Position numbers and translations under genes: made by a program
Source of the DNA: a virus
Direction: 5' to 3' (one strand)
DNA length: 52,732 bases
Virus record (IMG/VR): IMGVR_UViG_3300042294_004185
Location: 1 to 52,732 of that record
Shown: positions 13,373 to 48,136 of the stretch, one piece after another
Layout of the letters: every line of letters begins with the position of its first letter
Position numbering within the stretch: the stretch's first letter is position 1
Notes under the pieces: model-generated
Told to the model about the DNA's origin: nothing
Seen by the model: the letters and a program-made list of their open reading frames with translations, nothing else
Database searches by the model: none

Positions 13373-13378
13373 ATTAAA

Positions 13379-14041
13379 TTATTTTTTATGTATAATAATA
13401 GTTTTATAAGCATTTTGAATATCCGGATGTACATCTATTTGAGATATATTATCTTCTAGATATTTTTTTTCTTGTTCTGTTAAAAATTCTGAATCTGCTA
13501 TTTTTTGTTCTTTTAGTTTTGTAATAAAATCAAAAGTTTCATCGTTTCTAATACAACAACAAGGTAAATCTCTTTCAGTTACATCTTCTAATATATAAAA
13601 ACCTTTTGATTTCACATATTTAAATAAATGTCCTAAAGAAATTATTTGATGATTATGTTGATGAGAACCATCTTCTAATATAAAATCAAAATCCTTAGAA
13701 CCAAATTCATAATACATGTTAGTTAAATCCTCTCTAGAACTTTGATCTCCCTTATAAAATTTTACTCTTTCTCCCAATTCTGTTTCTAGTTCTTTCATAT
13801 CTACTATATCAAAAGTATGTATAAAAGCTTTTGAAAAATAATCATGCCACATCCTAACAGAATGTCCTCCTGTAGTACCTTCCATGCATATTCCTACTTC
13901 TAATAATCTAATAGATTCATTTCTCCACCTTGATAAGTAACTATCATATATAGGAGTATATCCATGTTTACTACTTTTTGGATATTGTGTGCCTTTATCT
14001 GTATTATAATAATTAGCTAATTCATCTAAAGTTTTTTCCAT
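13379..14041 (-). CDS. Sugar O-methyltransferase-like protein (demethylmacrocin type)
   Basis: This 220-aa SAM-dependent methyltransferase has LANYYNTDKGTQ at the start, LLEVGICMEGT (SAM loop), HTFDIVDM, and FILEDGSHQHNHQI. That set is typical of the family of the macrolide sugar methyltransferases and related LPS enzymes, where the Asp and His of DGSH bind the metal next to the sugar hydroxyl. It probably methylates a hydroxyl of a deoxy sugar. It sits between the DegT-type gene and the aldolase gene with 3-6 base gaps, so it belongs to the same transcript. The length is usual for the family. Confidence 0.75.
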   Translation of the reverse strand: MEKTLDELANYYNTDKGTQYPKSSKHGYTPIYDSYLSRWRNESIRLLEVGICMEGTTGGHSVRMWHDYFSKAFIHTFDIVDMKELETELGERVKFYKGDQSSREDLTNMYYEFGSKDFDFILEDGSHQHNHQIISLGHLFKYVKSKGFYILEDVTERDLPCCCIRNDETFDFITKLKEQKIADSEFLTEQEKKYLEDNISQIDVHPDIQNAYKTIIIHKK

Positions 14042-14044
14042 ACT

Positions 14045-15996: not shown

Positions 15997-16601
15997 AACG
16001 TATTATAAAACTCGTTTTGTTTTTCTTGTCTTTCTATTGTTTTAGGGTGTAATAAACAAAATTCATCTTCAGCAGGTAAAACAGCATATTTTTTAAATCC
16101 ATCTAACCTTTCGTGTACCTTGTTTATCCATTTTATTGTTGGAATATTTTTATATATTCTCCATTGATAATCAGGAAAATTAATTCTATCACCTTCTACA
16201 TTCCATTTCCATTTCTGGATATGTTCCTCGGTGAGACCACTTACGGTATTAATCCGAGGAACTAAGTATACATCCACATCAGGATTGCTCTCTAAAATAC
16301 CTGGTAACATATTAAGTAAATCTGTATTAGGTAATTCATCAGCATCTATTTGGAAGATATATTCTCCAGAACAGTGTTTAATTAATTCATTTTTATAGGC
16401 AGCAAAATCTTTATTTAATGGATAAAAATGATGTTTAATACCCCTGTTTACTATTACACCAACAACTTCATTTGTACAATTATCTTTATCGATTTGAATA
16501 ATTATTTCATATTCAGGGTACAAAGCTCGTTCTTGGAGGTAATCCAATAGAGTTTCTAATTCTTTATGTTCATTACAAACTGTTATCGCTATGCTTATCA
16601 T
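15993..16601 (-). CDS. Family 2 glycosyltransferase (LPS type)
   Basis: About 202 aa. The GT2 start ISIAITVCNEHKELETLL is followed by IIIQIDKDNC, NELIKHCSGEYIFQIDADELP (the DAD metal motif) and a WIYK/VHERL acceptor region typical of small LPS glycosyltransferases. An ATG eight codons upstream would lengthen the overlap with the zinc-ribbon gene to 53 bases. I chose the second ATG, because the family begins within a few residues of the first strand. It overlaps the GT10 gene by 4 bases. Confidence 0.8.
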   Translation of the reverse strand: MISIAITVCNEHKELETLLDYLQERALYPEYEIIIQIDKDNCTNEVVGVIVNRGIKHHFYPLNKDFAAYKNELIKHCSGEYIFQIDADELPNTDLLNMLPGILESNPDVDVYLVPRINTVSGLTEEHIQKWKWNVEGDRINFPDYQWRIYKNIPTIKWINKVHERLDGFKKYAVLPAEDEFCLLHPKTIERQEKQNEFYNTL

Positions 16602-17061
16602 CTTCGTCTTCTGGTAGGACTCCAATATACACTAAAGCTTCAATATAATCACGTTCAGGGAACATATAGAGAGTAGTCATATCCATTCTCCATTCATAGT
16701 ATTGTCCTTCTTTTCCTGGAATTGGATATTTGGTTTTTTCTTCTTCGGTTACAGGAACTGCTTTTACAGCTGCCCAGCCCCAATTATCTTTAGAAGCCCC
16801 ATTAGCAAATATCATTCCTTTTTCAGGAACATTTGTTGTTGATGGCATCCAAGTTAATCCATTTTCATCAACATAAAGCAAATCTTTATATAATTCAGGT
16901 AATACTTCAAGCTGTCTATTGTAAAATTCTTCTCCTTCTTTCATTAAAGAATTAGTCATAAAACCGCATCCATAACAAAAATACGTTTTAATGTCTTGAT
17001 TTACTTCTTCTACGTAGCAAGCATCTGAGCCGCAACGAGCACATGTTATTAAATTATCCAT
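16573..17061 (-). CDS. Zinc-ribbon protein of unknown function
   Basis: This 162-aa protein starts with a zinc ribbon: CARC at residues 7-10 and CYGC about 20 residues later. The rest is a compact acidic domain rich in Trp, Tyr and Pro (GLTWMPSTTN, KDNWGWAAVKAVPV) and ends in an acidic tail. I cannot name it. It sits inside the glycan block between glycosyltransferases, overlapping the GT4 gene by 8 bases. It may be a phage core gene around which the block assembled. Confidence 0.55.
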   Translation of the reverse strand: MDNLITCARCGSDACYVEEVNQDIKTYFCYGCGFMTNSLMKEGEEFYNRQLEVLPELYKDLLYVDENGLTWMPSTTNVPEKGMIFANGASKDNWGWAAVKAVPVTEEEKTKYPIPGKEGQYYEWRMDMTTLYMFPERDYIEALVYIGVLPEDEDDKHSDNSL

Positions 17062-18352
17062 TTTGTTCTACTGTTTTAATTTTTGGTAACTCTATTTTTT
17101 TAAGTTTTGGTATTGTTAATTTTACTTCTTCTGGAAATTCTGGAATGTATTGAGTTAGATAATTACTTATTTTTTCTTGCATTTTATTCCAACTAAATTC
17201 ATTTTTACTTATAAAGGCTTGACGTTTAGCTTTATCAGTATAATTTTTATAATTTTCAAATACATCTTTTAAATAATGTCCTATTTCCATATGGTTTGGA
17301 CTTAACCAACTTGATTCTTTTAATAACCATTGGTTTGCAGAACTTGGATGTACAGGAGTTAATTGACCACCAATCAAATTTGTAAATTCAGCATTCAAGA
17401 AATCTAATTGACCTGACCAACCTGTAGTAATTAATGGCTTTTTGACTAAAGTAAATTCAAGTAATGGACGACCATAACCTTCTCCTTTAGTTAAATTAAT
17501 CATTGCTTTTACTTTAGAATGATTATAAAGTTCATTCATTTCAGCATCTGTAAATTCACCATGAAGTAAATAAATATTAGGTAAATTCTTTGATGGAATT
17601 GATTTCCTAATTTTATTAATTTTTTTAAGTATTTCTTCTCTATCAAGATAAGATGAACCTGCTCCTGATGTTTTTAAGATTAAAGCTGGTTTATTGGCTT
17701 TATTTTTAAAGGTTTCATAAAATGCTTTAATTAATAATCCAACATTTTTTCTATCCTCACCCATATCACCAGCCATCCAATGTCCTACAAACAAATAGGC
17801 AAATTTTTCTTTAATTTGAATATCTAATGAACAAGGAGTATCAATTACTTTATATGTATTTAAATCTGCTCCTTCAAATAATACTTCAACTGGTTTTTTA
17901 AGTTCAATAATTCCTAATAATTGATTTGAATTAGGATCTCTTTTTTCAAATTTTGATTCTTCAAATACTTTTTTAGAATGATTTGATGAAACAAAGTTTA
18001 AATCCATTCTATTCAATCCTTCAATCCAATCACCAGCACATAAAGTAGTTTCAATACCTGCTGTAAATCCAATATTGTATTTTCCTACTGGTTGGAATTC
18101 ATTTGGGATTGTTACTTGGGCCCAAATTTGAGGTTGAAATGTTAATTGATTATTAGGTACAACTAAACTATATAGAAAATTCCATTCAGGATTATCACTA
18201 CAAAATCCAAAAGGACAAGCTCCCCAACGTTGGGATAATAGTTTAACGTCGTATTTATCTGTTTCAATAATGGCTTTAATTAAATCTCTTGAACGAGCAC
18301 CGTAGCCACTGTAGGTATCAAAAGGGCAACTTATAACAAATGTTGGTTTCAT
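17054..18352 (-). CDS. GT4-type glycosyltransferase (GT-B fold)
   Basis: This 432-aa protein starts with VISCPFDTYSGYGARSRDL, the N-terminal pattern of GT-B enzymes. It has FVGHWMAGDMGEDRKNVGLLI in the donor domain and EGYGRPLLEFTLVKKPLI, the E-x7-E motif that binds the nucleotide-sugar in GT4 enzymes. It would transfer a sugar with retention of configuration. It is followed one base away by a second GT4-like protein upstream, and the two may act in turn. The coding style is closer to the phage core than the sugar-building genes. The acceptor is unknown. Confidence 0.8.
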   Translation of the reverse strand: MKPTFVISCPFDTYSGYGARSRDLIKAIIETDKYDVKLLSQRWGACPFGFCSDNPEWNFLYSLVVPNNQLTFQPQIWAQVTIPNEFQPVGKYNIGFTAGIETTLCAGDWIEGLNRMDLNFVSSNHSKKVFEESKFEKRDPNSNQLLGIIELKKPVEVLFEGADLNTYKVIDTPCSLDIQIKEKFAYLFVGHWMAGDMGEDRKNVGLLIKAFYETFKNKANKPALILKTSGAGSSYLDREEILKKINKIRKSIPSKNLPNIYLLHGEFTDAEMNELYNHSKVKAMINLTKGEGYGRPLLEFTLVKKPLITTGWSGQLDFLNAEFTNLIGGQLTPVHPSSANQWLLKESSWLSPNHMEIGHYLKDVFENYKNYTDKAKRQAFISKNEFSWNKMQEKISNYLTQYIPEFPEEVKLTIPKLKKIELPKIKTVEQNG

Positions 18353-19788
18353 TAATATAACAATTTATGGTTTATAATTCTATCTTCTACTTCATTAACA
18401 TTAATCAATTCAAATTTTTCTCTTGGTTTCCAAGTTGAAAATAATTCATTAAATGCTTCTATTACTCTTTTACCTTGATATTCAGCAGTAAATCCAGCTT
18501 CATCACTCATAGCCCATTCTTTTCCGGCTAAACCTCTATTTTTACGTTCTTCAGGACCTAAGTTATACACAGCCATAATTTGTTCAGCTGCATCTTCTGG
18601 ATTGCAAGTGTCATCCCAAATGTATGGAGTTGGGGGAGAACCTACTAATGTTCTAGAACTTGGGAATACGGGAAAAGCCCACTTACCGTGTTTTTTATAA
18701 GTGCCTTTATGGTTTGAAGGTACATCTGCATTTGGTGTAAACCAATTACCATTTTCATCTTCAAATCTCATTTGATCTTGCATACCACCAGTTACGTTAG
18801 CGATAATAGGATTACCTGCTAATATAGCTTCTGTTAAACTTAATCCCCAACCTTCATTAGAAGTTAATAGAATTTGACAGTCTGTACTGTTATAAAGTAA
18901 ATTCATTTGTTGTGGATTGAAAACACTATCTGTAAAGATAACATTATATTGTTCTCCGTTAGCTAATAATTCAATTACAGCATCCAAATCAGTACCATGT
19001 TCATTAACATGTTCGGTATGTAATACTAAAGCACATTTTTTAGCTTTTTCAATAGGTAATTGATCTATAAAATATCTATATGCTAAAATAGTATCTGGGA
19101 TTTGTTTACGTCTAATATTTCTAGAATTAAATAGTAGAGCAAAATCATATTCTTTATCTTTAAATAATTTCTTTTTAAATTCTTTTAATTCAGAATCATT
19201 TTTATCTAAAGGTTTAAAAATATCAGTATTTAGTCCGTGAGGAATATATTTTAAAATTCTCTTATCGGCTTTATCTCCTAATACTAATTTATTAATGTTT
19301 ACAGTTTGTTTTGAAATACCCATCAACAAATCACAGGCCTCATAAAAAGGTTTGTTATATAATGGAGCAGGATAATCATCCCAAATATTTAAATATGTAA
19401 TAGGAATATGTTTTCTAATTTCATTTTCCATAGAAAACACCCAAACAAAATATCTTGGATCTGTAATCAACATAATAGCGTCTGGTTTTTCAACAGCCAT
19501 CAATTGTCTTAAAATATCTGGATTTCCATATTCATGGACTGGATATAGAGTTACTGAAGCATCTTTTAATCCTGTGGTCTCATTAGTTGAGGGAGATAAG
19601 TCTAATCTTTTTCCAAATTCAGGATGTTGAATTGCTCCTCCTAAATTTACCCAATTAAAATGTTGTGCTGTGTGCAAAACTATTTCTTTACCTACGTTAG
19701 CGATACCAGAATGTACTCTAATATCATCACAAATAAGCATAATTTTCTTCCTCTTATCAGGAGGTAAGTAAGCAAAACTTGAATTCAT
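18352..19788 (-). CDS. GT4-type glycosyltransferase (GT-B fold)
   Basis: This 478-aa protein has a GT-B pattern: IMLICDDIRVHSGIANVGKE at the N-terminus, LLFNSRNIRRKQIPDTILA opening the donor domain, and NEGWGLSLTEAILAGNPII with the E-x7-E motif. A WDDYPAPLYNKPFYEACDLL stretch resembles the linker of related enzymes. It probably works with the GT4 gene just downstream. It lies 7 bases after the small RHH-like gene, so it is probably the first enzyme gene of the transcript. The substrate is not readable from the sequence. Confidence 0.8.
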   Translation of the reverse strand: MNSSFAYLPPDKRKKIMLICDDIRVHSGIANVGKEIVLHTAQHFNWVNLGGAIQHPEFGKRLDLSPSTNETTGLKDASVTLYPVHEYGNPDILRQLMAVEKPDAIMLITDPRYFVWVFSMENEIRKHIPITYLNIWDDYPAPLYNKPFYEACDLLMGISKQTVNINKLVLGDKADKRILKYIPHGLNTDIFKPLDKNDSELKEFKKKLFKDKEYDFALLFNSRNIRRKQIPDTILAYRYFIDQLPIEKAKKCALVLHTEHVNEHGTDLDAVIELLANGEQYNVIFTDSVFNPQQMNLLYNSTDCQILLTSNEGWGLSLTEAILAGNPIIANVTGGMQDQMRFEDENGNWFTPNADVPSNHKGTYKKHGKWAFPVFPSSRTLVGSPPTPYIWDDTCNPEDAAEQIMAVYNLGPEERKNRGLAGKEWAMSDEAGFTAEYQGKRVIEAFNELFSTWKPREKFELINVNEVEDRIINHKLLY

Positions 19789-23482: not shown

Positions 23483-25421
<1,939 letters not shown>

Positions 25422-26011: not shown

Positions 26012-26452
26012 TTACTTAATTGTTAATAGTTTTGTTTTTGTTTCTTTACTGTGTGGAATGGAAATTTTTAATAAGCCATTTTCCATTTTGGCTTCAGATT
26101 GTGATAAGTCAAATTGTGAGGAAATTTTGTAACCAATATTAATAGAACGTTTAGCTATTCCTCTATGAATGTATCTAACTAAACCTAAGTCCTCAGTATC
26201 AATACCTTCAGTTTTTGCTTTATCATAACTGATTTTAAGGATGTCTCCTTCAACCCCAATTTCTAAATCTTCTTTGTCAAGACCGGTACAAGCCACTTCA
26301 AAGTGGAGTCCATCTTTATTTTCGTAAATGTCAATTGGGTGTGGGATTTTTGCTTCTTCAGCAGGGAAGAAGTGTGAGTTCGACTCAAAAAAGTTCTTAA
26401 ACAGAATGTCGAACGGTGTTAGTTCTCTTTCAAATAATTTTAAATTTGTCAT
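26012..26452 (-). CDS. Small heat-shock protein Hsp20
   Basis: This 146-aa protein has an alpha-crystallin domain (about residues 38-146): IDIYENKDGLHFEVACTGLD, LEIGVEGDILKISYDK, a YIHRGIAKRSINIGY stretch (like the RxFxRxFxL strand), and AKMENGLLKISIPHSKE at the end (the GxLxI pattern). Small heat-shock proteins hold unfolded proteins for refolding, and here would pass them to the GroEL/GroES also encoded by this phage. Relatives occur in cyanophages. Its leader has a true Shine-Dalgarno (AGGAG) that may pair with an upstream sequence, see the next entry. Confidence 0.92.
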   Translation of the reverse strand: MTNLKLFERELTPFDILFKNFFESNSHFFPAEEAKIPHPIDIYENKDGLHFEVACTGLDKEDLEIGVEGDILKISYDKAKTEGIDTEDLGLVRYIHRGIAKRSINIGYKISSQFDLSQSEAKMENGLLKISIPHSKETKTKLLTIK

Positions 26453-30356: not shown

Positions 30357-30526
30357 TACTTTAATTTATTTAAAATTTTATCCCAAAACAAGTCTAACTT
30401 GTCTTTTCTTGCTTTACAGCCACAATCATCATAGCCCATTTTTTTGGCTATAAAGAGGGCAATACGGTAACCTTGCCCTAAGGTAATAATGTTTATTACC
30501 TTTTCAACAAAACCACCTAGCTTCAT
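30356..30526 (-). CDS. Small conserved phage protein with CGC motif, 56 aa
   Basis: The frame gives MKLGGFVEKVINIITLGQGY, then a hydrophobic stretch and GYDDCGCKARKDKLDLF. The order IAKKMG, DCGC, RK and LF is one I associate with small unnamed phage proteins. A Cys pair (C36, C38) may bind metal. It overlaps the FolE stop by one base and the dUTPase-like start by three. Confidence 0.55.
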   Translation of the reverse strand: MKLGGFVEKVINIITLGQGYRIALFIAKKMGYDDCGCKARKDKLDLFWDKILNKLK

Positions 30527-31218
30527 TAGATCTGATGTCCTCCGTTGTTGATTTTCAAGCTGTCAAAAAATTCCTTACGTGCTTGATTTTCGTTGTTCAA
30601 GAATACTCCTGATGCTTTTGTAGTAACCATTGAAGCTCCTTGATGTTTAACACCTCTACAGCTTACACAATTGTGAGTAGCAACTACAGTTACAATTACA
30701 CCTTTGTTGTTTTCACAGATTTTATCTACTGCTTGGTGGATTGCTGATGTAAGTTGTTCTTGAATAGCTCCTCTACGTCCAAAATGCTCAACAATACGAT
30801 TTAATTTAGACAAACCAATTACTGAACCATTTTCACCTACAATGTAACCAATATGAACTACACCTCCGATTGTTTGGTGGTGATGAGAACACATTGAGGT
30901 AAGTGGGATGTTACGTTCAATAACAATACCATCATAACCATCACTAGGGAATGAGGTAATGTCACTCATAGCATCATAACGGCCTTTCCACAAATCAAAT
31001 ACATAAGCTTTAGCTACACGACGAGGGGTGTCTGCTGAATTTGGATCGTTTCTCCAATCACATTGTAAAGCATCTAAAAATTTACCATATGCTTCTGCTG
31101 CCTCATCTACCATTGACCATTTTTCTTTCTCAGTAAATGGGAAACCAGGAGCAATACCATTGGCATAACCTTGTTTTACACACTCTAGATCGAGTGTAAA
31201 TGTTTTATTTTTTTCCAT
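30526..31218 (-). CDS. folE: GTP cyclohydrolase I
   Basis: This 230-aa protein has the family motifs MCSHHHQTIGGVVHIGY (zinc ligands C110 and H113), GLSKLNRIVEHFGRR, and THNCVSCRGVKHQG with C184 as the third zinc ligand. It opens GTP to dihydroneopterin triphosphate, the first step of both folate and 7-deazaguanine synthesis. No folate gene is seen here, but QueD, QueE, QueC and a DpdA/TGT-like gene are all in the window, so the 7-deazaguanine route is the likely job. It has its own promoter, and LamG-like virion genes separate it from the other pathway genes. Confidence 0.93.
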   Translation of the reverse strand: MEKNKTFTLDLECVKQGYANGIAPGFPFTEKEKWSMVDEAAEAYGKFLDALQCDWRNDPNSADTPRRVAKAYVFDLWKGRYDAMSDITSFPSDGYDGIVIERNIPLTSMCSHHHQTIGGVVHIGYIVGENGSVIGLSKLNRIVEHFGRRGAIQEQLTSAIHQAVDKICENNKGVIVTVVATHNCVSCRGVKHQGASMVTTKASGVFLNNENQARKEFFDSLKINNGGHQI

Positions 31219-31230
31219 AACTTATATTGT

Positions 31231-31261
31231 AATATAATGAATTTATTTTTGATAACCAAAT
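31231..31261 (-). promoter_or_regulatory. Early-type promoter ahead of folE, ATTTGG-N19-TATATT
   Basis: Exact 19-base spacing, and a leader ending AAGTTATG. The -33 box ends on the first base of the stop codon of the virion gene upstream. It gives folE an early start independent of the late genes next to it. Confidence 0.75.
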
Positions 31262-32235
31262 TAAAGTCCAAATCTTCCTTTTTGGGCGTTATAATTTTGT
31301 GATATTTCAGATGATGATAAAATCCTATTATAAATTCTATAAATACCTCCATTACCGGAAAAATAACCTTGTTCTGCCCATCTTGCTATTACAACGTTAG
31401 TAGTACCAATAAAAGAGGCTATAGTACCTGTTCCTTGAGATACATTATTTTTAAATATTTGACAAGCACCATTTGAAGCATTAAAAGTATAGACAATTTG
31501 ATACCAGTTATTTACAGTAACAGTTCCAGCAGAAAAATCCGAAGCATAATGTCCTTGATAAATCACTCCATTTCTGAATACTAAGTGTAAACCTTGTCTA
31601 AAACCTTGTTGATCAGTACCAAACATTGTTCTATCACCTGATAAATTTGTAGGATAAACCCATGCTTCCATAGTATAATTAGCATCATAAAACCCTAATT
31701 GTGTTGCTGTTTTACCCGTATTACAATAATCATCTGTTCCATCCCACACAATCGAACCACTATTAGCAGAATTAAACGCAGGATTATTTATTAATGTTCC
31801 ATTATTAGAATTCCCACTCAAATCATACCAAGTAGATCCTGTTGTTGGATATGAAGGATCAAAACCCGCATCATAATTCAACATTAATCCATTAGTTACA
31901 ATACCTTCATAGTTAAAATTAACACATAGTTTATCTGTTTGAGTAGCAAAATATTCTAAACATTGAGCTACTGTTGTATAACCTGCTGGAGAACCTACAG
32001 TCCCAGCAATATTTCTATTTGTGATATTAATTAATTGTGTATCATTAGCAGGACAATAAATACTAGGACCACCAGATGCTTTATTTAAATAAATTGTATA
32101 ACCACCAGATGGAGGATCGATACCATTAAAAAATGTTAGTCCATAATCAGCAGTATTATTACCAATTAACATATTGCCTTTTCTAAGACAACCTGTTGGT
32201 GTAGCACCTGTTGAATATTTTATTACGTTAGGCAT
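31261..32235 (-). CDS. LamG-type adhesin-like virion protein, copy A
   Basis: This 324-aa protein has two parts. The N-terminal 130 residues (from MPNVIKYSTGATPTGCLRKGNMLIG, including GPSIYCPANDTQL) are shared with the gene at 32520-33554. The rest is a concanavalin-A-like lectin domain: LSGNSNNGTLINNPAF, IVWDGTDDY, YTMEAWVYP and GGIYRIYNRILSSSEI, as in LamG jelly-roll proteins. Both copies end YNAQKGRFGL. Such domains on tail fibres bind sugars on the host. The pair probably are receptor-binding or decoration proteins with different sugar-binding faces. Confidence 0.75.
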   Translation of the reverse strand: MPNVIKYSTGATPTGCLRKGNMLIGNNTADYGLTFFNGIDPPSGGYTIYLNKASGGPSIYCPANDTQLINITNRNIAGTVGSPAGYTTVAQCLEYFATQTDKLCVNFNYEGIVTNGLMLNYDAGFDPSYPTTGSTWYDLSGNSNNGTLINNPAFNSANSGSIVWDGTDDYCNTGKTATQLGFYDANYTMEAWVYPTNLSGDRTMFGTDQQGFRQGLHLVFRNGVIYQGHYASDFSAGTVTVNNWYQIVYTFNASNGACQIFKNNVSQGTGTIASFIGTTNVVIARWAEQGYFSGNGGIYRIYNRILSSSEISQNYNAQKGRFGL

Positions 32236-32240
32236 TTAAA

Positions 32241-32507
32241 TTAAATAGGATAAGGTGGAGTCCACTCAGGTGTAGATAAAATAGTTAAAATTTCATTGTA
32301 AGTATATTCTTGAGATTTACTTGTTAAACTAGATACTGATGAAGGCATTGGCATATCATATTTAACAAATGTTTTTGTTTCATCAACAGATTTTCTAACT
32401 GTATCAGCATCTGTTTCAAATACTTGATTAAAATTAATTTTATTAAGTTCTGTTACATTAAATATAACAAAACGTCTGTCGGGGTATTGTTCTTGTTCTA
32501 GTGACAT
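32241..32507 (-). CDS. Small protein between the LamG genes, possible fibre accessory
   Basis: This 88-aa acidic protein begins MSLEQEQYPDRRFVIFNV, with TDADTVRKSVDETKTFVKYD and EYTYNEILTILSTPEWTPP. I associate this pattern with short genes that accompany LamG-type fibre genes in phages of this kind. It might be a fibre assembly factor or a small structural part, but no motif proves it. A TAATATTTATA motif lies 5 bases before its start. Confidence 0.55.
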   Translation of the reverse strand: MSLEQEQYPDRRFVIFNVTELNKINFNQVFETDADTVRKSVDETKTFVKYDMPMPSSVSSLTSKSQEYTYNEILTILSTPEWTPPYPI

Positions 32508-32511
32508 ATGG

Positions 32512-32522
32512 TATAAATATTA
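32512..32522 (-). promoter_or_regulatory. Putative late-gene motif TAATATTTATA
   Basis: Exact copy. The TAA is the stop codon of LamG copy B. It lies a few bases ahead of the small gene's ATG. Confidence 0.4.
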
Positions 32523-33554
32523 AAGGCCGAAGCGACCTTTTTGAGCGTTGTAGTTTTGGGTGACTTCTGTTGATAGAAGAGCACGATTATATATTAGCAA
32601 ATTATATTGCGTCATTTGAGGTGACCATCCACCAGAGGGAAAATTACCTAATATGTCCGTAGTTGATTGTGATAGACCTGAGCTTTTAGTTGCTGTATTT
32701 GTATAAATTTCACTATTATTTAAATATATTTTAGTAGTTGCCTGCGTAGATGAAATAGGTGTCCAAGTTAATACACAGTGGTAAAAAGTATTTACACTTA
32801 ATGTTGTTGATGTCAAATGTAACCAAGGATTATAACTATCACCTGCACCTATCCACCACCTTAAAACAGGATTTCCCCCATTTGCATTAATAGAAAAATG
32901 CCAAAAATTATTACTTGCACCACCACTACCTCTATATAATATACTTCTTCCATCTCCATTAGGAATTGAAAAATCAGATGGTAATTTTATCCAAGTCAAA
33001 ATAGAAATTCCATTTGGATATAAACTGTTAAAAAAAGAATCATTAACACCATCACAAGTCATAATATCATCAATTCCATCATAAACTATCCCCCCACTAT
33101 TAGCCGAATTATATGTAGGACCATTTGTTAATGTTTCGTTTCTATTATTTCCACTTAAATCATAAAGTGTTGTTCCCGTTGTAGGATATGAACCAACAAA
33201 CCCAGCATCTGTGTTTAATACTAACCCATTAGTAACTATACCTTCATAGTTTATATTAACACATAATTTGTCAGACTGTCCAGCAAAATAATTTAAACAT
33301 TGAGCAGCTGTTGTATAATTTGCCCCCGCAATTTGATTAGTAATAAAAATTAATTGAGTATTGTTAGCAGGGCAATAAATACTAGGACCACCACTAGCTT
33401 TATTTAAATAAACAGTATAGCCACCAGATGGAGGGTCAATGCCGCTAAAAAAAGAGGATCCATAGTTAGCTGTGTTATTAGCAATTAACATATTACCTTT
33501 TTTTAGGCAACCTGTTTCAACAGCTCCTGTTGTATATTTTATTCCGTTAGGCAT
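32520..33554 (-). CDS. LamG-type adhesin-like virion protein, copy B
   Basis: This 344-aa paralogue of the protein at 31261-32235 has the same N-terminal region (PPSGGYTVYLNKASGG, GPSIYCPANNTQL) and the same YNAQKGRFGL end, but a more different lectin domain (LSGNNRNETLTNGPTYN, MTQYNLLIYNRALLSTEV). Conserved ends and a variable middle fit a host-range protein under selection. Both are probably exposed on the virion. The C-terminal motif may serve for assembly or trimer formation, which is inference. Confidence 0.75.
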   Translation of the reverse strand: MPNGIKYTTGAVETGCLKKGNMLIANNTANYGSSFFSGIDPPSGGYTVYLNKASGGPSIYCPANNTQLIFITNQIAGANYTTAAQCLNYFAGQSDKLCVNINYEGIVTNGLVLNTDAGFVGSYPTTGTTLYDLSGNNRNETLTNGPTYNSANSGGIVYDGIDDIMTCDGVNDSFFNSLYPNGISILTWIKLPSDFSIPNGDGRSILYRGSGGASNNFWHFSINANGGNPVLRWWIGAGDSYNPWLHLTSTTLSVNTFYHCVLTWTPISSTQATTKIYLNNSEIYTNTATKSSGLSQSTTDILGNFPSGGWSPQMTQYNLLIYNRALLSTEVTQNYNAQKGRFGL

Positions 33555-33558
33555 TTAT

Positions 33559-33569
33559 CATAAATATGA
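33559..33569 (-). promoter_or_regulatory. Imperfect late-gene motif
   Basis: TCATATTTATG on the minus strand differs by two bases from TAATATTTATA and lies between the stop of the upstream gene and the LamG copy B start. It is the weakest member of the set. Confidence 0.3.
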
Positions 33570-34070
33570 CTAATCTTCAGCCATAATGCCTGTAATATAC
33601 TTTTGATTACGTTTTAATCCATTTTCAGCATCTAAACCATATCCAATCAACCAATGTTCGTTAGTTAATTCAAATCCATAAATTAAATCGGGATGTTTAG
33701 AATAATGTTTTTTAAATAATGTTACAGGAATAATAGATTTAGGATTATTATATTGAAGATGTTTTATCAAATGATTCATAGTATTACCTGAATCATAAAT
33801 GTCATCTATAAGATAAACATCTTTTCCTTCAATATCAACAGTAATTGATTTTAAAATTCTTATTTCACCCTGCTTAGTTCCATCGTAAGATTTCGCACTA
33901 ACAAAATCTATTTCACAATCATCTACTTGTTTAACCAAGTCCGTAAAAAACATAAACGCGCCATTTAAAACGCATATAAACACGGGTGGATTTTCGTGTT
34001 GATTCTTTTTAATTTTATAGGCAATCTCACCTACTTTGTTTTTAATTTCTAATTCTGAGAACAATATCAT
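33570..34070 (-). CDS. Hypoxanthine/guanine phosphoribosyltransferase
   Basis: This 166-aa protein has the PRPP motif VYLIDDIYDSGNTM (85-98) and VCVLNGAFMFF-like GAFMF in the flexible loop region. It joins a purine base to PRPP to give a nucleotide. In this window it sits beside a 7-deazaguanine pathway, so it might salvage guanine or even a deazapurine base, but ordinary purine salvage is the first guess. It overlaps the thioredoxin-like gene upstream by 4 bases. Confidence 0.85.
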   Translation of the reverse strand: MILFSELEIKNKVGEIAYKIKKNQHENPPVFICVLNGAFMFFTDLVKQVDDCEIDFVSAKSYDGTKQGEIRILKSITVDIEGKDVYLIDDIYDSGNTMNHLIKHLQYNNPKSIIPVTLFKKHYSKHPDLIYGFELTNEHWLIGYGLDAENGLKRNQKYITGIMAED

Positions 34071-34312
34071 AAAATAACTTTTTTCAAAAACTCGGTAATT
34101 TCTTTTATACCTTCAAATTTATGTTTTCCATTTTGATCTTCCAACATAAATGTAGGAACCCATTTAATATCAAGAGATTCAATTAACATGCCTTCTTCAT
34201 AAGTGTTAATAGAAGTAATTTCAAATATTTGTTTTAATTCCTCTATTACAGGTTTTAAATCCTGACATTTAGGACATTCGGGGTTATAGAAGAAGGTTAA
34301 TTTTGGTTTCAT
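34067..34312 (-). CDS. Thioredoxin/glutaredoxin-like protein with CPKC site
   Basis: This 81-aa protein has FFYNPECPKCQDLKPV (CxxC redox site), a WVPTF cis-proline segment and a C-terminal helix. It could reduce the ribonucleotide reductase or a disulphide in a phage protein. A second thioredoxin with a CGPC site is encoded at 37010-37258. It overlaps the nuclease gene upstream by 4 bases. Confidence 0.75.
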   Translation of the reverse strand: MKPKLTFFYNPECPKCQDLKPVIEELKQIFEITSINTYEEGMLIESLDIKWVPTFMLEDQNGKHKFEGIKEITEFLKKVIL

Positions 34313-34884
34313 TTTATTAAGTATTTTTTAAAGTCTGAGTATTCGGGAGTTTTGTTTGGGAAATAATATTTTTCTGTTTTATTATTAAATGTAATTATTT
34401 TATAAAATCCATCAGGAACTGTAGCTCCAGTAGCTAATTTTAAAGACGTTGTACTATACACCATTCTAATTTCTACACTAACTGTGGTGGTTGCTGCTAG
34501 GTCGCGCTCATATGACTCTAATATACGCCATACACCGCGATTTAAGCGCTCATGTTGTAAAACACAATTTGCATAAGTAAATGTTTTATATAATAATTCT
34601 TTTGTACAATTAAAATCAGCAGCAGGAGCACAATGTCCTTTATCATAAACATTATTTGCATAATCATTATTATCAGAAGTAATCAAATTAGGTTCAGCAT
34701 AAAAATCCATTCCTGTACGAGGTGCTTTACCATTAGGACATTGAACAGTATATTTAACCCATTTTGGTTGTTGTAATACTTCAGAATAAACTTCTGTAAA
34801 AATGTCTGTTTTAAGATAGACTGAATCTCTTTGAGCAAATGCTACTAAAGGTAATAAAAATAATACTAATAATAATTTTTTCAT
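34309..34884 (-). CDS. Secreted DNA/RNA non-specific endonuclease (beta-beta-alpha metal)
   Basis: This 191-aa protein starts with a Sec signal peptide: a Lys pair, LLLVLFLLPLVAF and AQ as a likely cut site near residue 17. The mature part has YDKGHCAPAADF, the variant of the DRGH motif with the catalytic His, and NCVLQHERLNRGVWRILE, in which the first Asn binds the metal, as in NUC1-type nucleases. It would be exported to the periplasm or beyond and degrade DNA there, for example incoming competitor DNA or biofilm DNA. Phage nucleases usually stay in the cytoplasm, so the signal peptide is unusual. The KGH for RGH change needs testing. Confidence 0.8.
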   Translation of the reverse strand: MKKLLLVLFLLPLVAFAQRDSVYLKTDIFTEVYSEVLQQPKWVKYTVQCPNGKAPRTGMDFYAEPNLITSDNNDYANNVYDKGHCAPAADFNCTKELLYKTFTYANCVLQHERLNRGVWRILESYERDLAATTTVSVEIRMVYSTTSLKLATGATVPDGFYKIITFNNKTEKYYFPNKTPEYSDFKKYLIK

Positions 34885-34888
34885 ATAT

Positions 34889-34899
34889 TATAAATATTA
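34889..34899 (-). promoter_or_regulatory. Putative late-gene motif TAATATTTATA
   Basis: Exact copy ahead of the nuclease gene. The TAA is the stop of the DUF2452-type gene. Four bases separate it from the start codon. Confidence 0.4.
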
Positions 34900-35268
34900 C
34901 ATTTTATTCCATTTATTGTTGGAATCTAATACAAAACTACCTACACATTCATATTTCCATTCATTAGGTTTAATCATTGATAAAAATATATTTCCATCTC
35001 TTCCAACATATAAATGATATGTTTGTCCTATAACTGGTTCGAAATTAAATTTAGCATTATAAACTAATTCGTTCCATTTATATTCCTCTACTAATTTTTT
35101 ATATTCATCTTTTAATTCATTAAATCTAGTTTGTAGTTGATGATTTACTTTAATAGAATTAATAGATTTCCAGATAGTGGTATCTTCAACCCTAATAGCA
35201 GGAGCACTTACATTACTACCATAAGGTAATAATCCCGGGTTTTCAGCTACATTATCTGGTTTTTTCAT
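34897..35268 (-). CDS. DUF2452-like conserved protein
   Basis: This 123-aa protein starts MKKPDNVAENPGLLPYGSNV, the pattern I recall for DUF2452, a family of unknown function found in bacteria and phages. The middle is helical (QTRFNELKDEYKKLVEEYKW) and the end a small beta domain (GQTYHLYVGRDGNIFLSM). It overlaps the thioesterase gene by 4 bases. No reaction is known for the family. Confidence 0.65.
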   Translation of the reverse strand: MKKPDNVAENPGLLPYGSNVSAPAIRVEDTTIWKSINSIKVNHQLQTRFNELKDEYKKLVEEYKWNELVYNAKFNFEPVIGQTYHLYVGRDGNIFLSMIKPNEWKYECVGSFVLDSNNKWNKM

Positions 35269-35666
35269 AGTTTTGAGGGAGGGGTGTTGAATATTCTTTT
35301 AACTTGTTCTGATATTGGGATAGGAACACCTTCTTCATCTACACGAACAAAAGTCATATTGGTAGCAAGTAAAACAACTTCATCACCTCTAAATACATTG
35401 TATGCTCTTGCTTCTACATTAAATGTAGCTGATGTGTTTCCTATTTTAACTAATTGAGCATAAATTTTAACAAGTTGTTTTTCTTTGGCAGGTTTTTTAA
35501 ACACACACTTATCCATAGCAATAGTAATCATGTTTTGACTTCTACATCTTTCCATAGCATAGGCAGCAACAGCAGCATCTAACCAGCTAAGTAATTTACC
35601 ACCAAATAGATTACCATGAAAACCTAAATCTGATTTTTTAACGGGGTGGGTTGATAATAAATTCAT
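35265..35666 (-). CDS. Hotdog-fold acyl-CoA thioesterase
   Basis: This 133-aa protein matches the YciA/acyl-CoA thioesterase pattern: LGFHGNLFGGKLLSWLDAAV with the central hotdog helix, AMDKCVFKKPAKEKQLVKIY and a typical strand end (ATNMTFVRVDEEG). It would cleave the thioester of acyl-CoA, perhaps altering host lipid metabolism. Such genes are rare in phages. It sits in the 7-deazaguanine transcript next to QueE, overlapping it by one base. The call is firm, but its substrate and reason for being here are not known. Confidence 0.8.
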   Translation of the reverse strand: MNLLSTHPVKKSDLGFHGNLFGGKLLSWLDAAVAAYAMERCRSQNMITIAMDKCVFKKPAKEKQLVKIYAQLVKIGNTSATFNVEARAYNVFRGDEVVLLATNMTFVRVDEEGVPIPISEQVKRIFNTPPSKL

Positions 35667-36457
35667 TAAACAGCTCTCTTAGTATCATAACTAATAATGT
35701 GGTCACGACCTGTCCAATTATAACCCATTTCAAATGCTTTTTCTAATGAAATAGGATATTGTTTAATTAATTCCTCTCTGTTATCTCCAGCAGGCATCAA
35801 CCAAGTTTTATTTTTAGGAATATTCATTTCAACTCTAAATCCCTCAATTTCATCCATTGTGGTTTGAGTACCATCATAAACTGGTTTATAATGAAAATCA
35901 GTATGATAGTCTAATGTTTTACGAATTGCCTCTTTATTTAAACGAAGTTTATTATGTTGGTCAATCATTTTTTGATCAACGAGTTTACCCATTGGAGTGG
36001 TAGTGTCAAGGCTAGGAACAGAATTACTAAACTTTGGAGATAAAGATACCAACCCAAATGGATAATCGGTTTCAATAAAGTGACTACCTTCTGTTTCAAT
36101 GGTTATACATATACCACGCTCGTGAGCAAAGTGAGTTAATTCATTACACAAATCAGGTTGCATAGTTGGTGAACCTCCAGTTAACATCATTTCTTTAATT
36201 TCAGGATTTTCATCATAAATCTTAATAATGTCGTTAAATGTATAAATACCTTTTTCTGGGTGGATACTTGTGTACCAAGAATCACACCAACCTCCAGCAC
36301 CAAACCAACATCTATGAGTACAACCTGTTGTTCTAATAGCTACTGTTGGGCGACCTTGTCTTGAACCTTCACTTTGAATACAAGTATAAACTTCAAGTAC
36401 AGGTAATTTTTTGTTATAGTCGAGAATACGACCTGGTTTTTTAGTTTCTGTTGTCAT
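35666..36457 (-). CDS. queE: 7-carboxy-7-deazaguanine synthase QueE (radical SAM)
   Basis: This 263-aa radical SAM protein has IQSEGSRQGRPTVAIRTTGC, then the cluster Cys C46-x3-C50 and C58, and MLTGGSPTMQPDL for SAM binding. It converts 6-carboxy-tetrahydropterin to CDG with ring contraction. The Cys spacing is odd: the usual CX3CX2C has the third Cys at 53, while here five extra residues give CX3CX7C, so the cluster loop is longer. It abuts the QueD gene by one base. It forms part of a DpdA/QueC/QueD/QueE unit. Confidence 0.88.
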   Translation of the reverse strand: MTTETKKPGRILDYNKKLPVLEVYTCIQSEGSRQGRPTVAIRTTGCTHRCWFGAGGWCDSWYTSIHPEKGIYTFNDIIKIYDENPEIKEMMLTGGSPTMQPDLCNELTHFAHERGICITIETEGSHFIETDYPFGLVSLSPKFSNSVPSLDTTTPMGKLVDQKMIDQHNKLRLNKEAIRKTLDYHTDFHYKPVYDGTQTTMDEIEGFRVEMNIPKNKTWLMPAGDNREELIKQYPISLEKAFEMGYNWTGRDHIISYDTKRAV

Positions 36458-37017
36458 TAGAATTCATATTTTGAGTTTGAACGATATTCATTTAGATATT
36501 TTTCCATATCATCTTTAGACATAGGTTTAATATCTTCTTGGTAAATGCTAGAATTTTTATCTGCTTCCCAACATTCTACTTTGGTTACTTTAACTCTACC
36601 ACCACCTTGTTTAGATAATACATCATTAAATTTATCATATACTAATTTAGCAGCAGATTCAGCTCCAATTTTATCCATAATACGTAAATGACATACTGTT
36701 GGATTCATTGAAACAAATAAATCTAAATATGGATCATCTTTTTCAATTAATAAAGTATGATCCCACATATAATCCATCCAATCTTTTAATCCATTACCTG
36801 GAGTTGGTTTGGCATCTACTGATTTAAATCCACCATAGTCTTGAATCCAATTCATTTCATCTAATTGGTTTTCTTCTAATGGTTCTACTGATTCAAACCA
36901 TACTTTAAATTTTAAAGCATAACCATGAAGTAGTTGACAATGTGAATGTTGTGCTTTCCATTGTCTAATAGCAACTGAATAGTTGTCAAATAATTTTGTT
37001 GATTGATATTTACCCAT
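36457..37017 (-). CDS. queD: 6-carboxy-5,6,7,8-tetrahydropterin synthase QueD
   Basis: This 186-aa protein has the family core: QHSHCQLLHGY with catalytic C27 and H31, MWDHTLLI with the Asp-His pair (D86, H87), and VECWEADKNS with the Glu that binds the substrate (E148). It turns dihydroneopterin triphosphate, made by FolE, into 6-carboxy-tetrahydropterin. One usual zinc His is a Tyr (HGY for HGH), so zinc binding may be altered. It overlaps the thioredoxin gene by 8 bases. Confidence 0.88.
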   Translation of the reverse strand: MGKYQSTKLFDNYSVAIRQWKAQHSHCQLLHGYALKFKVWFESVEPLEENQLDEMNWIQDYGGFKSVDAKPTPGNGLKDWMDYMWDHTLLIEKDDPYLDLFVSMNPTVCHLRIMDKIGAESAAKLVYDKFNDVLSKQGGGRVKVTKVECWEADKNSSIYQEDIKPMSKDDMEKYLNEYRSNSKYEF

Positions 37018-37258
37018 TGTTAATAAATTGCATTACTTGTTCATATGATTTCGCACCTACAAATCTACGAACTTCTTGTCCGTTTTCCACGAGTATTACA
37101 GTAGGAACACTCATAACATTTGCACCACGAGCTCTATCCATTTCATAATCAATGTTAATTTTTTGAACACCAATTTGTTGTCCTACTTTATCCATAACTG
37201 GACCTAATGCTTGGCAAGGACCACACCAAGGGGCTGTAAAATAAAATAATTGTTTCAT
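37010..37258 (-). CDS. Thioredoxin (CGPC type)
   Basis: This 82-aa protein starts QLFYFTAPWCGPCQALGPVM with the full WCGPC redox site, then the cis-proline SVPTVILV and FVGAKSYEQV near the end. It is a little shorter than host thioredoxins (105 aa). It may reduce the phage ribonucleotide reductase or another enzyme in this transcript. It overlaps both neighbours by a few bases. Confidence 0.88.
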   Translation of the reverse strand: MKQLFYFTAPWCGPCQALGPVMDKVGQQIGVQKINIDYEMDRARGANVMSVPTVILVENGQEVRRFVGAKSYEQVMQFINNG

Positions 37259-37410
37259 ACTAATTCTTCGATAATTCCTATAAGTTCACTAAATATAAGT
37301 ACTGTAGTTGCAGCTACCAAGCTAAATGGAATAAGTCCATAACCGGCAATTCGTACTCCTGATTTGATAAAACTAATAGTTTGATGTTTTTTAGGATCTG
37401 GTTGTTTCAT
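37255..37410 (-). CDS. Small membrane protein, 51 aa
   Basis: The frame gives MKQPDPKKHQTISFIKSGVR, then a hydrophobic segment (about residues 21-42: IAGYGLIPFSLVAATTVLIF) and a short acidic end. Overlaps of 4 bases on both sides support the frame. I associate the KKHxTxSFIKSGxRIAGY pattern with other phage small genes, without known function. Confidence 0.6.
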   Translation of the reverse strand: MKQPDPKKHQTISFIKSGVRIAGYGLIPFSLVAATTVLIFSELIGIIEELV

Positions 37411-37625
37411 TTTAATAATTCTTCTTCGTTAATTAATTCGGCTCCATAAGTAAATTCTAAAAGCCGTGTTGTATTTTCTTTATGTAATGGTTTTGCTTCA
37501 AACCAATTACCGGACCATTGAGCAGAACCTCCTTTTAATCCGGTAAATACCTCCCCTGCTCTATTAATTACTACATACATAGGAACAGAGGGAGGTGATT
37601 TTCTATACTGTTTTCGTGTGTTCAT
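37407..37625 (-). CDS. Conserved small phage protein, 72 aa
   Basis: A basic start, a beta-rich centre (MYVVINRAGEVFTGLKGGSA) with WSGNWFEAKPL, and an acidic end. No family I can name. It overlaps QueC by 23 bases at the start and the small membrane protein by 4 at the end, so it probably is expressed with the QueC gene. Confidence 0.55.
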   Translation of the reverse strand: MNTRKQYRKSPPSVPMYVVINRAGEVFTGLKGGSAQWSGNWFEAKPLHKENTTRLLEFTYGAELINEEELLK

Positions 37626-38502
37626 CTAGAACGGAAGATACGTACTCTTTTACAAATTCCCAAGTTACTGGTCCGAATTCGTCAGCATAACTTACAGGAT
37701 CTTTACGACCTAGTTTTATAAATGCTTCTACTCGTTCAACAGATGATGCTGATTTGTAATCACTAAACCAATCTTCTTCTTCAACAATACCACCATCTTC
37801 AGTATCATAATATACTGTTAATTTAATTGGTTTATAGGATGTATTAGTACGTCTATAAACTTCATCAAAATTAAGTCCAAGGGTATGACAACAAATCTCA
37901 CCATCAACTAAAATACCATACTTATCATCTTCAAGATATGGAGTATAATAAGTTACTTTTTCAGCACCCCAGTTACCTGCTTTAAATGCTTCATAATCAA
38001 TATCTCTAAATTCTTGTCTACAATCAGGATAAATTGCATGGTCACCAGCATGAATACCCATTGCAATAACACATTCTGTATTTTTAGATTCTGCAATTGA
38101 TAAGGCAACGGCTTGAATAATTGAACTAAAGATTTTGTTACGATTAGGAACAACAGTCGCTTTCATATTTTCTTCAGCATAGTGTCCTTCAGGAACTTCT
38201 GCTCCACCTGTTACAAGTGCTGAATTTAGTAGTTGACTCAATCCATCAAGTTTAATTACTTGATAATTAACTTTAGGAAAGTGATGTAAAATAACTTCTG
38301 ATGTTTCAGATTTGTATTTAACTTCATCTGCTTTACTATTTAAATAATCAACTAAAGACTGTGCACGTTCAAGTTCAACTGAATGTTTTTGTCCATAATC
38401 AAAGGATAATGCTGTAACTTCATAGCCATTGGCGAGTAGATGAAGCAGCAAGGTAGAGCTATCCATTCCTCCACTTAGTGATAATACTGCTTGTTTATTC
38501 AT
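37603..38502 (-). CDS. queC: 7-cyano-7-deazaguanine synthase QueC, lacking the zinc site
   Basis: This 299-aa protein begins with the ATP-pyrophosphatase loop SLSGGMDSSTLLL (S10 to S16) and has FDYGQKHSVEL and VPNRNKIF, as in QueC. QueC makes preQ0 from CDG with ATP and ammonia. Its normal zinc site is four Cys: one before a Tyr (SCY) and three in CGxCxxCxxR. Here these read TNTSYKP and D248...S251...S254...R257, so all four Cys are replaced while the rest of the motif (VERVEAFIKLGRKDP) is kept. There is an insertion of about 20 residues before it. It could be active without zinc or could make an amide product. Its start overlaps the small gene upstream. Confidence 0.88.
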   Translation of the reverse strand: MNKQAVLSLSGGMDSSTLLLHLLANGYEVTALSFDYGQKHSVELERAQSLVDYLNSKADEVKYKSETSEVILHHFPKVNYQVIKLDGLSQLLNSALVTGGAEVPEGHYAEENMKATVVPNRNKIFSSIIQAVALSIAESKNTECVIAMGIHAGDHAIYPDCRQEFRDIDYEAFKAGNWGAEKVTYYTPYLEDDKYGILVDGEICCHTLGLNFDEVYRRTNTSYKPIKLTVYYDTEDGGIVEEEDWFSDYKSASSVERVEAFIKLGRKDPVSYADEFGPVTWEFVKEYVSSVLDEHTKTV

Positions 38503-38627
38503 TTTGACATTCTTTTTAATACTTCTAATCTATTTTGAGTAATTTTCCATTTATTTTCACGAATAGCTTGTAATGCTTTTTCGATTTCTTTATCCCATAC
38601 AGGATTTATTTCAGGTTGTTTTTTCAT
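38499..38627 (-). CDS. Small helical protein, 42 aa
   Basis: Translation gives MKKQPEINPVWDKEIEKALQ, then a basic helix ending VLKRMSK. No motif. Its TGA overlaps the QueC ATG (ATGA), which supports the frame and coupled translation. Confidence 0.5.
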   Translation of the reverse strand: MKKQPEINPVWDKEIEKALQAIRENKWKITQNRLEVLKRMSK

Positions 38628-38629
38628 AA

Positions 38630-38839
38630 TTAAAATGGTAAATTATCTATTTGTTCAACTTTAAAATACTTATCTAACCAATCTTTAGGATAAAGCATTA
38701 CTTTACCTGTATATCTTGGGTTTGAAATTTCTCGAATTGTACGAGATATTTTTTCTTCAGCCGCTGCTTTATAAACATTAGCTCCTAATTCTTTACCTGC
38801 TGGTTTGCCAAGGTAATCAAAAAGTGATATCATTTCCAT
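38630..38839 (-). CDS. Conserved small protein, 69 aa
   Basis: The start MEMISLFDYLGKPAGKELGANVYKAA and the helix/turn pattern suggest a compact alpha protein. I associate it with short genes in related phages, but the function is unknown. It lies 2 bases after the 42-aa gene and 5 bases before the DpdA-like gene in the same transcript. Confidence 0.55.
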   Translation of the reverse strand: MEMISLFDYLGKPAGKELGANVYKAAAEEKISRTIREISNPRYTGKVMLYPKDWLDKYFKVEQIDNLPF

Positions 38840-38844
38840 ATATT

Positions 38845-39621
38845 TTATTTTAATAACTTTCTAAACATTCTTAAATTCCAATCCAACAAATTATAATCTA
38901 ATTCTGTGGTATAGAAATTATCATTCATATTTGATTTTGGTTTATCAAGTAAACCATTTCGACCATATTGAATACCATCTAAAGTTGCCATAATAGGATT
39001 TGATGTATCAATAGTTTCAATAAATCCAGCATCTTTATACCAACTAAATTCTTGTGGTACCTGACAACCTAATAAATGTACTCTATCATTTGGTTGAATT
39101 AAACCCATACTATACATTCTACCTATTACTTCAATTCTACCTAATGCTTTTGCTAAATTTTTATTAGGATGATTAGAATGATCTAAATAATATTCAGCAC
39201 CATAAGAGAATGCAATTTTCTTATAACCTAAATCTCTATACGTTTGATAACAAAGCATAGCATCTAAGAAATTCTGTGCTTGAACTACTGCTACCTTAGT
39301 AACTTCTTTAGGTAATTCAATTTGGGCCCAAAATCTAGCATTAACAATAGATTGAGTTGTATCTTGCCAAACATCAGGTACAATAAATTCATTTGGTTTT
39401 AACTCGTTAATCCAGTGTATTAAACGAGATTTATCATATGCTACTCCTAATTCATGTAATGAATTATCCATTATCATATACACACCTTGTTTTTTAACTT
39501 TATAAAAAAAGTCTTTGTAATCTTCGTCTTGATCTAACAAATGAGGTAAACAATACTGATAGTCATTAAAATCTAGACTATCTTCTAATAAACAAATAGG
39601 AACTTCATGACTAATTTTCAT
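38845..39621 (-). CDS. dpdA: DpdA/TGT-like DNA 7-deazaguanine transglycosylase candidate
   Basis: This 258-aa protein reads like the TGT barrel: MIMDNSLHELG (an acid in the base pocket), LKPNEFIVPDVWQDT, VAVVQAQN, the HLLGC strand and IDTSNP with a possible nucleophile Asp. DpdA proteins swap guanine in DNA for preQ0 or a related base. A TGT acting on tRNA would be longer and carry a zinc site, which is absent. With queC, queD, queE and folE in the window, this is the natural last step. It heads the transcript and has its own early promoter. I read the family from fold motifs and context, so the exact subgroup is uncertain. Confidence 0.75.
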   Translation of the reverse strand: MKISHEVPICLLEDSLDFNDYQYCLPHLLDQDEDYKDFFYKVKKQGVYMIMDNSLHELGVAYDKSRLIHWINELKPNEFIVPDVWQDTTQSIVNARFWAQIELPKEVTKVAVVQAQNFLDAMLCYQTYRDLGYKKIAFSYGAEYYLDHSNHPNKNLAKALGRIEVIGRMYSMGLIQPNDRVHLLGCQVPQEFSWYKDAGFIETIDTSNPIMATLDGIQYGRNGLLDKPKSNMNDNFYTTELDYNLLDWNLRMFRKLLK

Positions 39622-39627
39622 AACTGT

Positions 39628-39658
39628 AATATAATAATAATTTTTTATTTTACCAAAT
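39628..39658 (-). promoter_or_regulatory. Early-type promoter ahead of the DpdA-like gene, ATTTGG-N19-TATATT
   Basis: Exact spacing and an ACAGTTATG leader 7 bases before the start codon. It probably starts the DpdA-QueC-QueD-QueE transcript. The -33 box touches the stop of the gene upstream. Confidence 0.75.
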
Positions 39659-40422: not shown

Positions 40423-40453
40423 AATATACAAAAGGGATTTGACAAAGCCAAAT
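40423..40453 (-). promoter_or_regulatory. Early-type promoter, ATTTGG-N19-TATATT, overlapping a terminator
   Basis: The -33 box ATTTGG is part of the downstream hairpin arm of the terminator of the EF-hand gene upstream. Spacing is 19 and the leader ends AAAGGTTATG. Confidence 0.75.
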
Positions 40454-48105: not shown

Positions 48106-48136
48106 AATATAAGAACGAGGTATTGTATAACCAAGT
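48106..48136 (-). promoter_or_regulatory. Early-type promoter ahead of the gp32-like gene, ACTTGG-N19-TATATT
   Basis: Exact spacing. The leader runs CGACATTAAAC... to the start 28 bases away. It would drive the ssDNA-binding, recombinase, exonuclease and helicase genes. Confidence 0.75.

Follow-up and report, generated by a model that had tools for sequence, protein, structure and literature searches.

A Complete 7-Deazaguanine Gene Set in a T4-like Phage Contig

The 7-deazaguanine genes described here lie in a 52.7-kb environmental contig of a T4-like phage (IMG/VR record IMGVR_UViG_3300042294_004185), which was analyzed over its whole length of 52,732 nucleotides and is referred to as the window. 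Neither the window nor its relatives are likely to be complete genomes. Nearly all genes of the window are on the minus strand, including all genes and promoter-like elements of the deazaguanine region given below, and this region is flanked by genes for a single-stranded DNA-binding protein (SSB), UvsX, a DnaB-type helicase, ribonucleotide reductase, and a family B DNA polymerase. A sequence-only reading of this DNA had proposed that FolE, QueD, QueE, QueC, and a DpdA-like protein are all encoded, and all five were located by family matches and by fold. FolE (GTP cyclohydrolase I; 30526–31218) matched PF01227 (E 5e-42) and PHROG 2197 (E 1e-57), and its gene showed 74.5% DNA identity to folE of Flavobacterium phage vB_FspM_immuto_2-6A (MW353175, hereafter immuto). 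QueD (6-carboxytetrahydropterin synthase-like; 36457–37017) matched PF01242 (E 7e-10) and PHROG 2389 (E 1.5e-32), and a search with its fold returned QueD2, E. coli QueD, and 6-pyruvoyltetrahydropterin synthase (PTPS) from the PDB, with the catalytic residues and the PTPS fold present. QueE, the radical SAM 7-carboxy-7-deazaguanine (CDG) synthase (35666–36457), was assigned by PHROG 2076, “QueE-like” (E 4e-45), and by 64% identity to immuto QueE; its match to TIGR03365 (E 4e-15) fell below the cut-off, and its Pfam radical SAM score was just below the cut-off. QueC (37603–38502) matched PF06508 (E 6e-35) and was 66% identical to immuto QueC. Thus, the window carries the complete set of preQ0 synthesis genes. 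Two further proteins, a 258-residue DpdA-like protein with the fold of tRNA-guanine transglycosylase (TGT) (38845–39621) and a purine phosphoribosyltransferase (PRTase) resembling HGPRT (33570–34070), are described below.

The arrangement of these genes was compared in 37 viral loci, where the order dpdA, small open reading frame (ORF), queC, small ORF, trx, queD, queE, thioesterase, PRTase, folE, and DNA polymerase was largely kept. Since this order recurs in more than 30 IMG/VR contigs at 46–88% identity, the gene set is not a chance assembly. The queD genes fell into two lineages, about 45% identical, that alternate at one position in otherwise syntenic contigs (e.g., L002 versus L001), and folE and the PRTase gene are exchanged for analogues in some relatives, which marks the locus as a hot spot for the replacement of genes in place. 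The queD copy of the window has an additional C-terminal tail.

A DpdA-like Protein with a Predicted Transglycosylase Fold

The DpdA-like ORF had no match in Pfam or NCBIfam and only a PHROG without assigned function (PHROG 19058); a phmmer search against PDB sequences gave no match, and PADLOC gave only a weak TGT match (E 0.008). By tblastn, its closest named relatives were the “DNA guanine transglycosylase” of immuto (33%, E 4e-42) and CPT_0056, a hypothetical protein of Campylobacter phage CP220 (34% over 91% of the length, E 7e-34), with weaker relatives in Cellulophaga phage phiST, Chryseobacterium phage MA9V-3, and Bacillus phages. An AlphaFold2 model (predicted local distance difference test score, pLDDT, 92) had the TIM-barrel fold of the transglycosylases. 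TGT and the DNA preQ0 insertase DpdA were the only proteins among the matches listed when the PDB was searched with this model, and in VIA-align, DpdA (7ui4) ranked on top with a Z of 17.4 over 228 residues, tied with the TGTs (Z about 17).

Two catalytic aspartates, Asp102 and Asp280, act in the TGT of Zymomonas mobilis. In the DpdA-like family, D52 (in DNS/DNG) and D205 (in DTS/DSC) were invariant across 13 diverse members, with identity down to 18–20%, and the gene with its aspartates was kept throughout the clade. In hhalign, these residues fell opposite the DSG motif of phage DpdA1 and, in a separate comparison, opposite Asp264 of the E. coli Tgt; both alignments were weak and were made by sequence rather than by superposition. 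The C-terminal zinc site of bacterial tRNA-TGT (CxCxxC...H) was also looked for, and its CxCxxC part is not present in the 258-residue sequence.

The TGT fold is common to enzymes acting on tRNA and on DNA, and que genes of marine Bacteroidetes phages have been discussed as serving tRNA queuosine (PMC7198788). The phage could accordingly be topping up the preQ0 pool of its host, with the TGT-like protein acting on tRNA. This seems very improbable for the present locus, as the CxCxxC motif of tRNA-TGT is missing, no QueF, which bacteria need for preQ1, was found, no tRNA gene is present in the window, and the relatives of the DpdA-like protein occur in phages whose DNA is modified or presumed to be so. 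The proposal of the sequence-only reading that preQ0 or a related base is made and put into phage DNA is therefore supported as an inference, given the full FolE-QueD-QueE-QueC set, the TGT/DpdA fold, the conserved aspartates, the missing CxCxxC, and the relatives in phages with modified DNA.

The Predicted Inserted Base

Searches of the window and of the relatives examined for this found neither QueF nor a formyltransferase of the type seen in immuto. Because QueC is present and these two enzymes were not found, the gene content favors preQ0 or its amide, 7-amido-7-deazaguanine (ADG), as the most likely base to be inserted; a later-acting enzyme encoded elsewhere is possible, since the genomes are probably incomplete. 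CAjan and Rosebush, which have the same gene set, carry preQ0 in their DNA as the deoxynucleoside dPreQ0, while phages of the Campylobacter CP220 group were described as highly modified by the deoxynucleoside of ADG (dADG), with no DpdA known for them at that time (Hutinet 2019, PMC6884629). The relationship of the DpdA-like protein to CPT_0056 makes its family a candidate transglycosylase for these dADG-modified Campylobacter phages. Cui and co-workers are said to have reached the same view of the Campylobacter DpdA candidate in 2023 and reportedly named, in an article in NAR, a DpdA3 subfamily for phages with complete replacement of G. This subfamily presumably includes the Campylobacter and immuto proteins and may include the DpdA-like protein of the window. 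In the Campylobacter phages, dADG reportedly replaces deoxyguanosine (dG) fully, as Crippen is said to have described in 2019.

A Phosphoribosyltransferase Gene Linked to folE

The PRTase gene (33570–34070) lies upstream of folE and had been overlooked in the sequence-only reading. That reading also missed the promoter-like element that folE has to itself and the loss of metal ligands in QueC and QueD, both described below. The PRTase is clearly homologous to HGPRT and closest to guanine/hypoxanthine enzymes (TIGR01203, E 5e-37; PF00156, E 9e-26; solved HGPRT/HGXPRT structures, E 1e-27), with a conserved phosphoribosyl pyrophosphate (PRPP) loop, DDxxDxGxT; its NCBIfam score of 127 was below the equivalog cut-off of 150. 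In every relative covering both genes, the PRTase gene adjoins folE, apart from inserted cassettes. The gap was at most 54 nt, or the genes overlapped, in 15 of the 16 relatives with HGPRT and FolE, and an insert as in the window was observed only in L021.

The association persisted when either partner was exchanged. A Gpt-like enzyme replaces the HGPRT-like one in immuto, L033, L034, and L037, and GTP cyclohydrolase IB (FolE2; PF02649, E 4e-71) replaces FolE in L033 (from 11566 on) and L037 (12704–13741), where the PRTase gene remains immediately upstream. The combinations observed were thus HGPRT with FolE1, Gpt-like with FolE1 (L034 and immuto), and Gpt-like with FolE2 (L033 and L037). In VpKK5, MMDA13, and ply2008005c, an annotated “GTP cyclohydrolase” of about 300 residues, encoded beside dpdA, consists of an N-terminal Gpt-like domain and FolE. 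The domain is not called by Pfam in these fusions; it was identified from a tblastn match to the immuto PRTase (E about 1e-6) and from its PRPP loop, DDxxDSGxT.

A search starting from the PRTase alone found deazaguanine genes in 78 of 80 viral loci, with a GTP cyclohydrolase gene at most 110 nt downstream in 56 of the 80. Among the 49 loci with 6 kb of upstream sequence, QueE was present in 47, QueC in 44, and DpdA in 37. These loci, the best 80 of 468, are related to one another and do not count as independent evidence; such evidence comes from how many lineages show the link and from the swaps of partners. The immuto PRTase matched 40 phage records, about 36 of which belong to lineages whose checked member carries deazaguanine genes, the other four being unannotated metagenome-type contigs. 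Taken together, the conserved adjacency, partner swaps, and fusions argue that the PRTase belongs to the deazaguanine module, as a well-supported new component; our literature search found no role for a PRTase in phage deazaguanine synthesis.

The strongest rival for the role of the PRTase is an action like that of TubE, a CDG-specific PRTase of the tubercidin cluster that is encoded beside FolE and QueDE homologues; the homologue ToyH has been proposed to act likewise for toyocamycin (PMC6112128). By this analogy, the phage PRTase would join PRPP to CDG, ADG, or preQ0, and the resulting nucleotide would be reduced and then used by the polymerase in DNA synthesis, beside or instead of base exchange. 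The window does encode a ribonucleotide reductase, and a modified-dGTP route was formerly proposed for the Campylobacter phages (PMC6884629). We nevertheless consider such a route unlikely, since the DpdA-like gene and its aspartates are kept in the whole clade, the partner of the PRTase, in some phages within a single fused protein, is the first enzyme of the pathway, FolE, rather than late ones such as QueC, and the sequence of the PRTase, including the DDxxDxG loop, is nearest to guanine/hypoxanthine enzymes. Guanine salvage is thus the reading that we prefer for the PRTase.

Two further loci were inspected. Brevundimonas phage MaInes, with a folE-XPRT pair and no adjoining que genes, was considered as a counter-example and rejected, as QueC, QueD, QueE, and a weak DpdA-like match lie about 8–10 kb away. 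In jumbo phage PA5oct (L061, 2995–4372), a Gpt-like PRTase gene directly precedes a QueE-like gene and FolE is encoded elsewhere; QueC and a match to the present DpdA profile were looked for in this phage and not found.

Metal Sites of QueC and QueD

Alignment of QueC showed the ATP-pyrophosphatase motif SGGxDS, present as SGGMDS, and the loss of all four C-terminal zinc cysteines in the window, in the whole clade, and in immuto; the cysteines are retained in E. coli, CAjan, CP220, Hedgerow, and phiSM. QueD keeps one of its three zinc histidines, with the equivalents of His16 and His33 replaced and Cys27, His31, the Asp-His pair, and Glu retained. The same histidines are lost, and the catalytic residues kept, in immuto, phiST, phiSM, and MA9V-3. 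A new conserved histidine directly before the catalytic cysteine of QueD might be a metal ligand.

These losses, shared with immuto in the case of QueC and with several Bacteroidota phages in that of QueD, could mean that the pathway is impaired, with the two enzymes acting otherwise or synthesis ending early, at CDG or ADG. We regard this as improbable: the ATP motif and the catalytic residues (Cys, His, Asp, and Glu) are strongly conserved, as are the overall folds, and genes with such changes persist in dozens of genomes. The lost metal sites of QueC and QueD are clear targets for enzymology.

Transcription Signals

Promoter-like elements of the form TTTGG-N19-TATATT precede dpdA (39628–39656) and folE (31231–31259). 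The pattern TTGG-N16..20-TATATT occurred 14 times on the transcribed strand, compared with a mean of 1.3 in shuffled sequences and one occurrence on the other strand, and TTTGG/TTGG-N19-TATATT was also seen just upstream of many other minus-strand genes (e.g., at 40423–40451, 48106–48134, 3196–3224, and 2456–2484). It is probably a phage-specific promoter class. Of 35 loci in the relatives, only 11 had the TTGG...TATATT pattern before dpdA. Some start codons follow the end of the −10 part by just 6–12 nt, which suggests that the mRNAs are leaderless or very short. Neither the canonical Bacteroidetes promoter (TANNTTTG) nor the late promoter of T4 (TATAAATA) was enriched on the transcribed strand; a general sigma-70 scan gave no more matches than in shuffled sequences.

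The sequence-only reading had placed dpdA, queC, queD, and queE in one transcript. This is plausible, as the genes are on the same strand with several overlaps and a terminator scan found no minus-strand site from 39657 to 33975, only a weak one within the PRTase gene; the claim is thus partly borne out, and dpdA to queE could form one transcription unit. A better terminator-like hairpin was found on the minus strand at 32540–32522, and folE, whose own promoter-like element lies behind it, can be a separate unit.

Proposed Mechanism

We propose that FolE, QueD, QueE, and QueC would convert GTP into a 7-deazaguanine base, which the DpdA-like transglycosylase would put in place of guanine once the phage DNA has been replicated, so that the modified DNA would escape restriction. 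In TGT-type exchange, one guanine is released for each base inserted. Each exchange would therefore free one guanine, which the guanine-type PRTase may convert to GMP; host kinases would then raise GMP to GTP, the substrate of FolE, with which the next deazaguanine begins. The genes with their folds, conserved residues, and order are shown, as is the association of the PRTase with folE; we infer that the enzymes are active, that DNA is the substrate, which base is inserted and to what extent, and that guanine is recycled, and give this overall reading a probability of roughly 85%. On balance, we also lean toward the broader proposal that a guanine-recycling PRTase is a recurrent and so far unrecognized part of phage 7-deazaguanine DNA modification, in which guanine expelled by DpdA would return through GTP to FolE and enable replacement of much or all dG.

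Several observations weigh against this interpretation. The tie of the DpdA-like family to TGT and DpdA rests on a predicted fold, and hhalign gave a probability below 2% for the family against single Tgt, DpdA1, and DpdA2 sequences. The loss of metal ligands in QueC and QueD could mean a changed activity. A PF00156 PRTase was absent in seven phages whose DNA is known or presumed to be modified (CP220, CAjan, 9g, Hedgerow, nt-1, phiSM, and MA9V-3), suggesting that the PRTase, and with it recycling, is optional rather than required. Finally, G-containing 4-base palindromes are depleted in the window (observed/expected 0.71), unlike what full restriction immunity would suggest, although the palindrome counts are mixed and composition-dependent.

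Deazaguanine-modified phage DNA is an established counter-defence, and base exchange yields waste guanine that nobody seems to have accounted for. If the proposal holds, coupling a salvage enzyme to FolE, where the pathway starts, would account for the supply needed for full replacement, and the PRTase link would offer a handle for recognizing deazaguanine systems.

Neighboring Genes

A thioredoxin gene (37010–37258; PF00085, E 1e-17) overlaps the start of queD, and its place is kept in the closer relatives. A YciA-like hotdog (4HBT) thioesterase (35265–35666; PF03061, E 5e-17) overlaps queE by one base; it is kept in the relatives, is 61% identical in immuto, and has no known link to deazaguanine synthesis. 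The insert between the PRTase gene and folE (31261–33554) encodes two paralogous proteins and one small ORF. The paralogues (31261–32235 and 32520–33554) share an N-terminal GCLxKGNMLI region and a C-terminal NYNAQKGRFGL, are LamG-like by appearance only, and sit within a metabolic operon; L021 carries a 3.3-kb insert at the same place. An AT-rich island at 6596–19788 contains sugar genes (glycosyltransferases, a DegT aminotransferase, a 3-dehydroquinate synthase-like protein, a thiamine pyrophosphate (TPP) enzyme, an aldolase, and epimerases), perhaps for surface glycan or nucleotide-sugar synthesis. A GroEL-like chaperonin is encoded at 23483–25093 and an Hsp20 at 26012–26452; GroEL and GroES are also present in immuto.

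Comparison with Known Systems

The deazaguanine gene set of the window is a confirmed, ordinary-to-good case of a known system, with QueC and QueD as two unusual enzymes, and the basic finding is one more example of this predicted modification, here in a widespread T4-like environmental clade. Among the systems compared, immuto has in common with the window FolE, QueD, QueE, QueC without the zinc cysteines, the DpdA-like protein, a PRTase just before folE, and the thioesterase. It differs in adding QueF and the formyltransferase and in having a Gpt-like rather than an HGPRT-like PRTase; its genes are scattered, and its DNA polymerase is of family A. CP220 and other Firehammerviruses likewise have the DpdA-like protein, QueC, QueD, FolE, and a T4-like genome, but their genes are scattered over the genome, the zinc cysteines of QueC are kept, and no PF00156 PRTase was found. 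The Queuovirinae and similar DpdA1 phages (CAjan, 9g, and VpKK5) share FolE, QueD, QueE, QueC, and a DNA transglycosylase, and modification of the DNA is proven for CAjan and 9g (PMC6884629). Their DpdA, however, belongs to a distant family that tblastn from the DpdA-like protein of the window does not reach, and in the VpKK5 type, the PRTase is fused with FolE.

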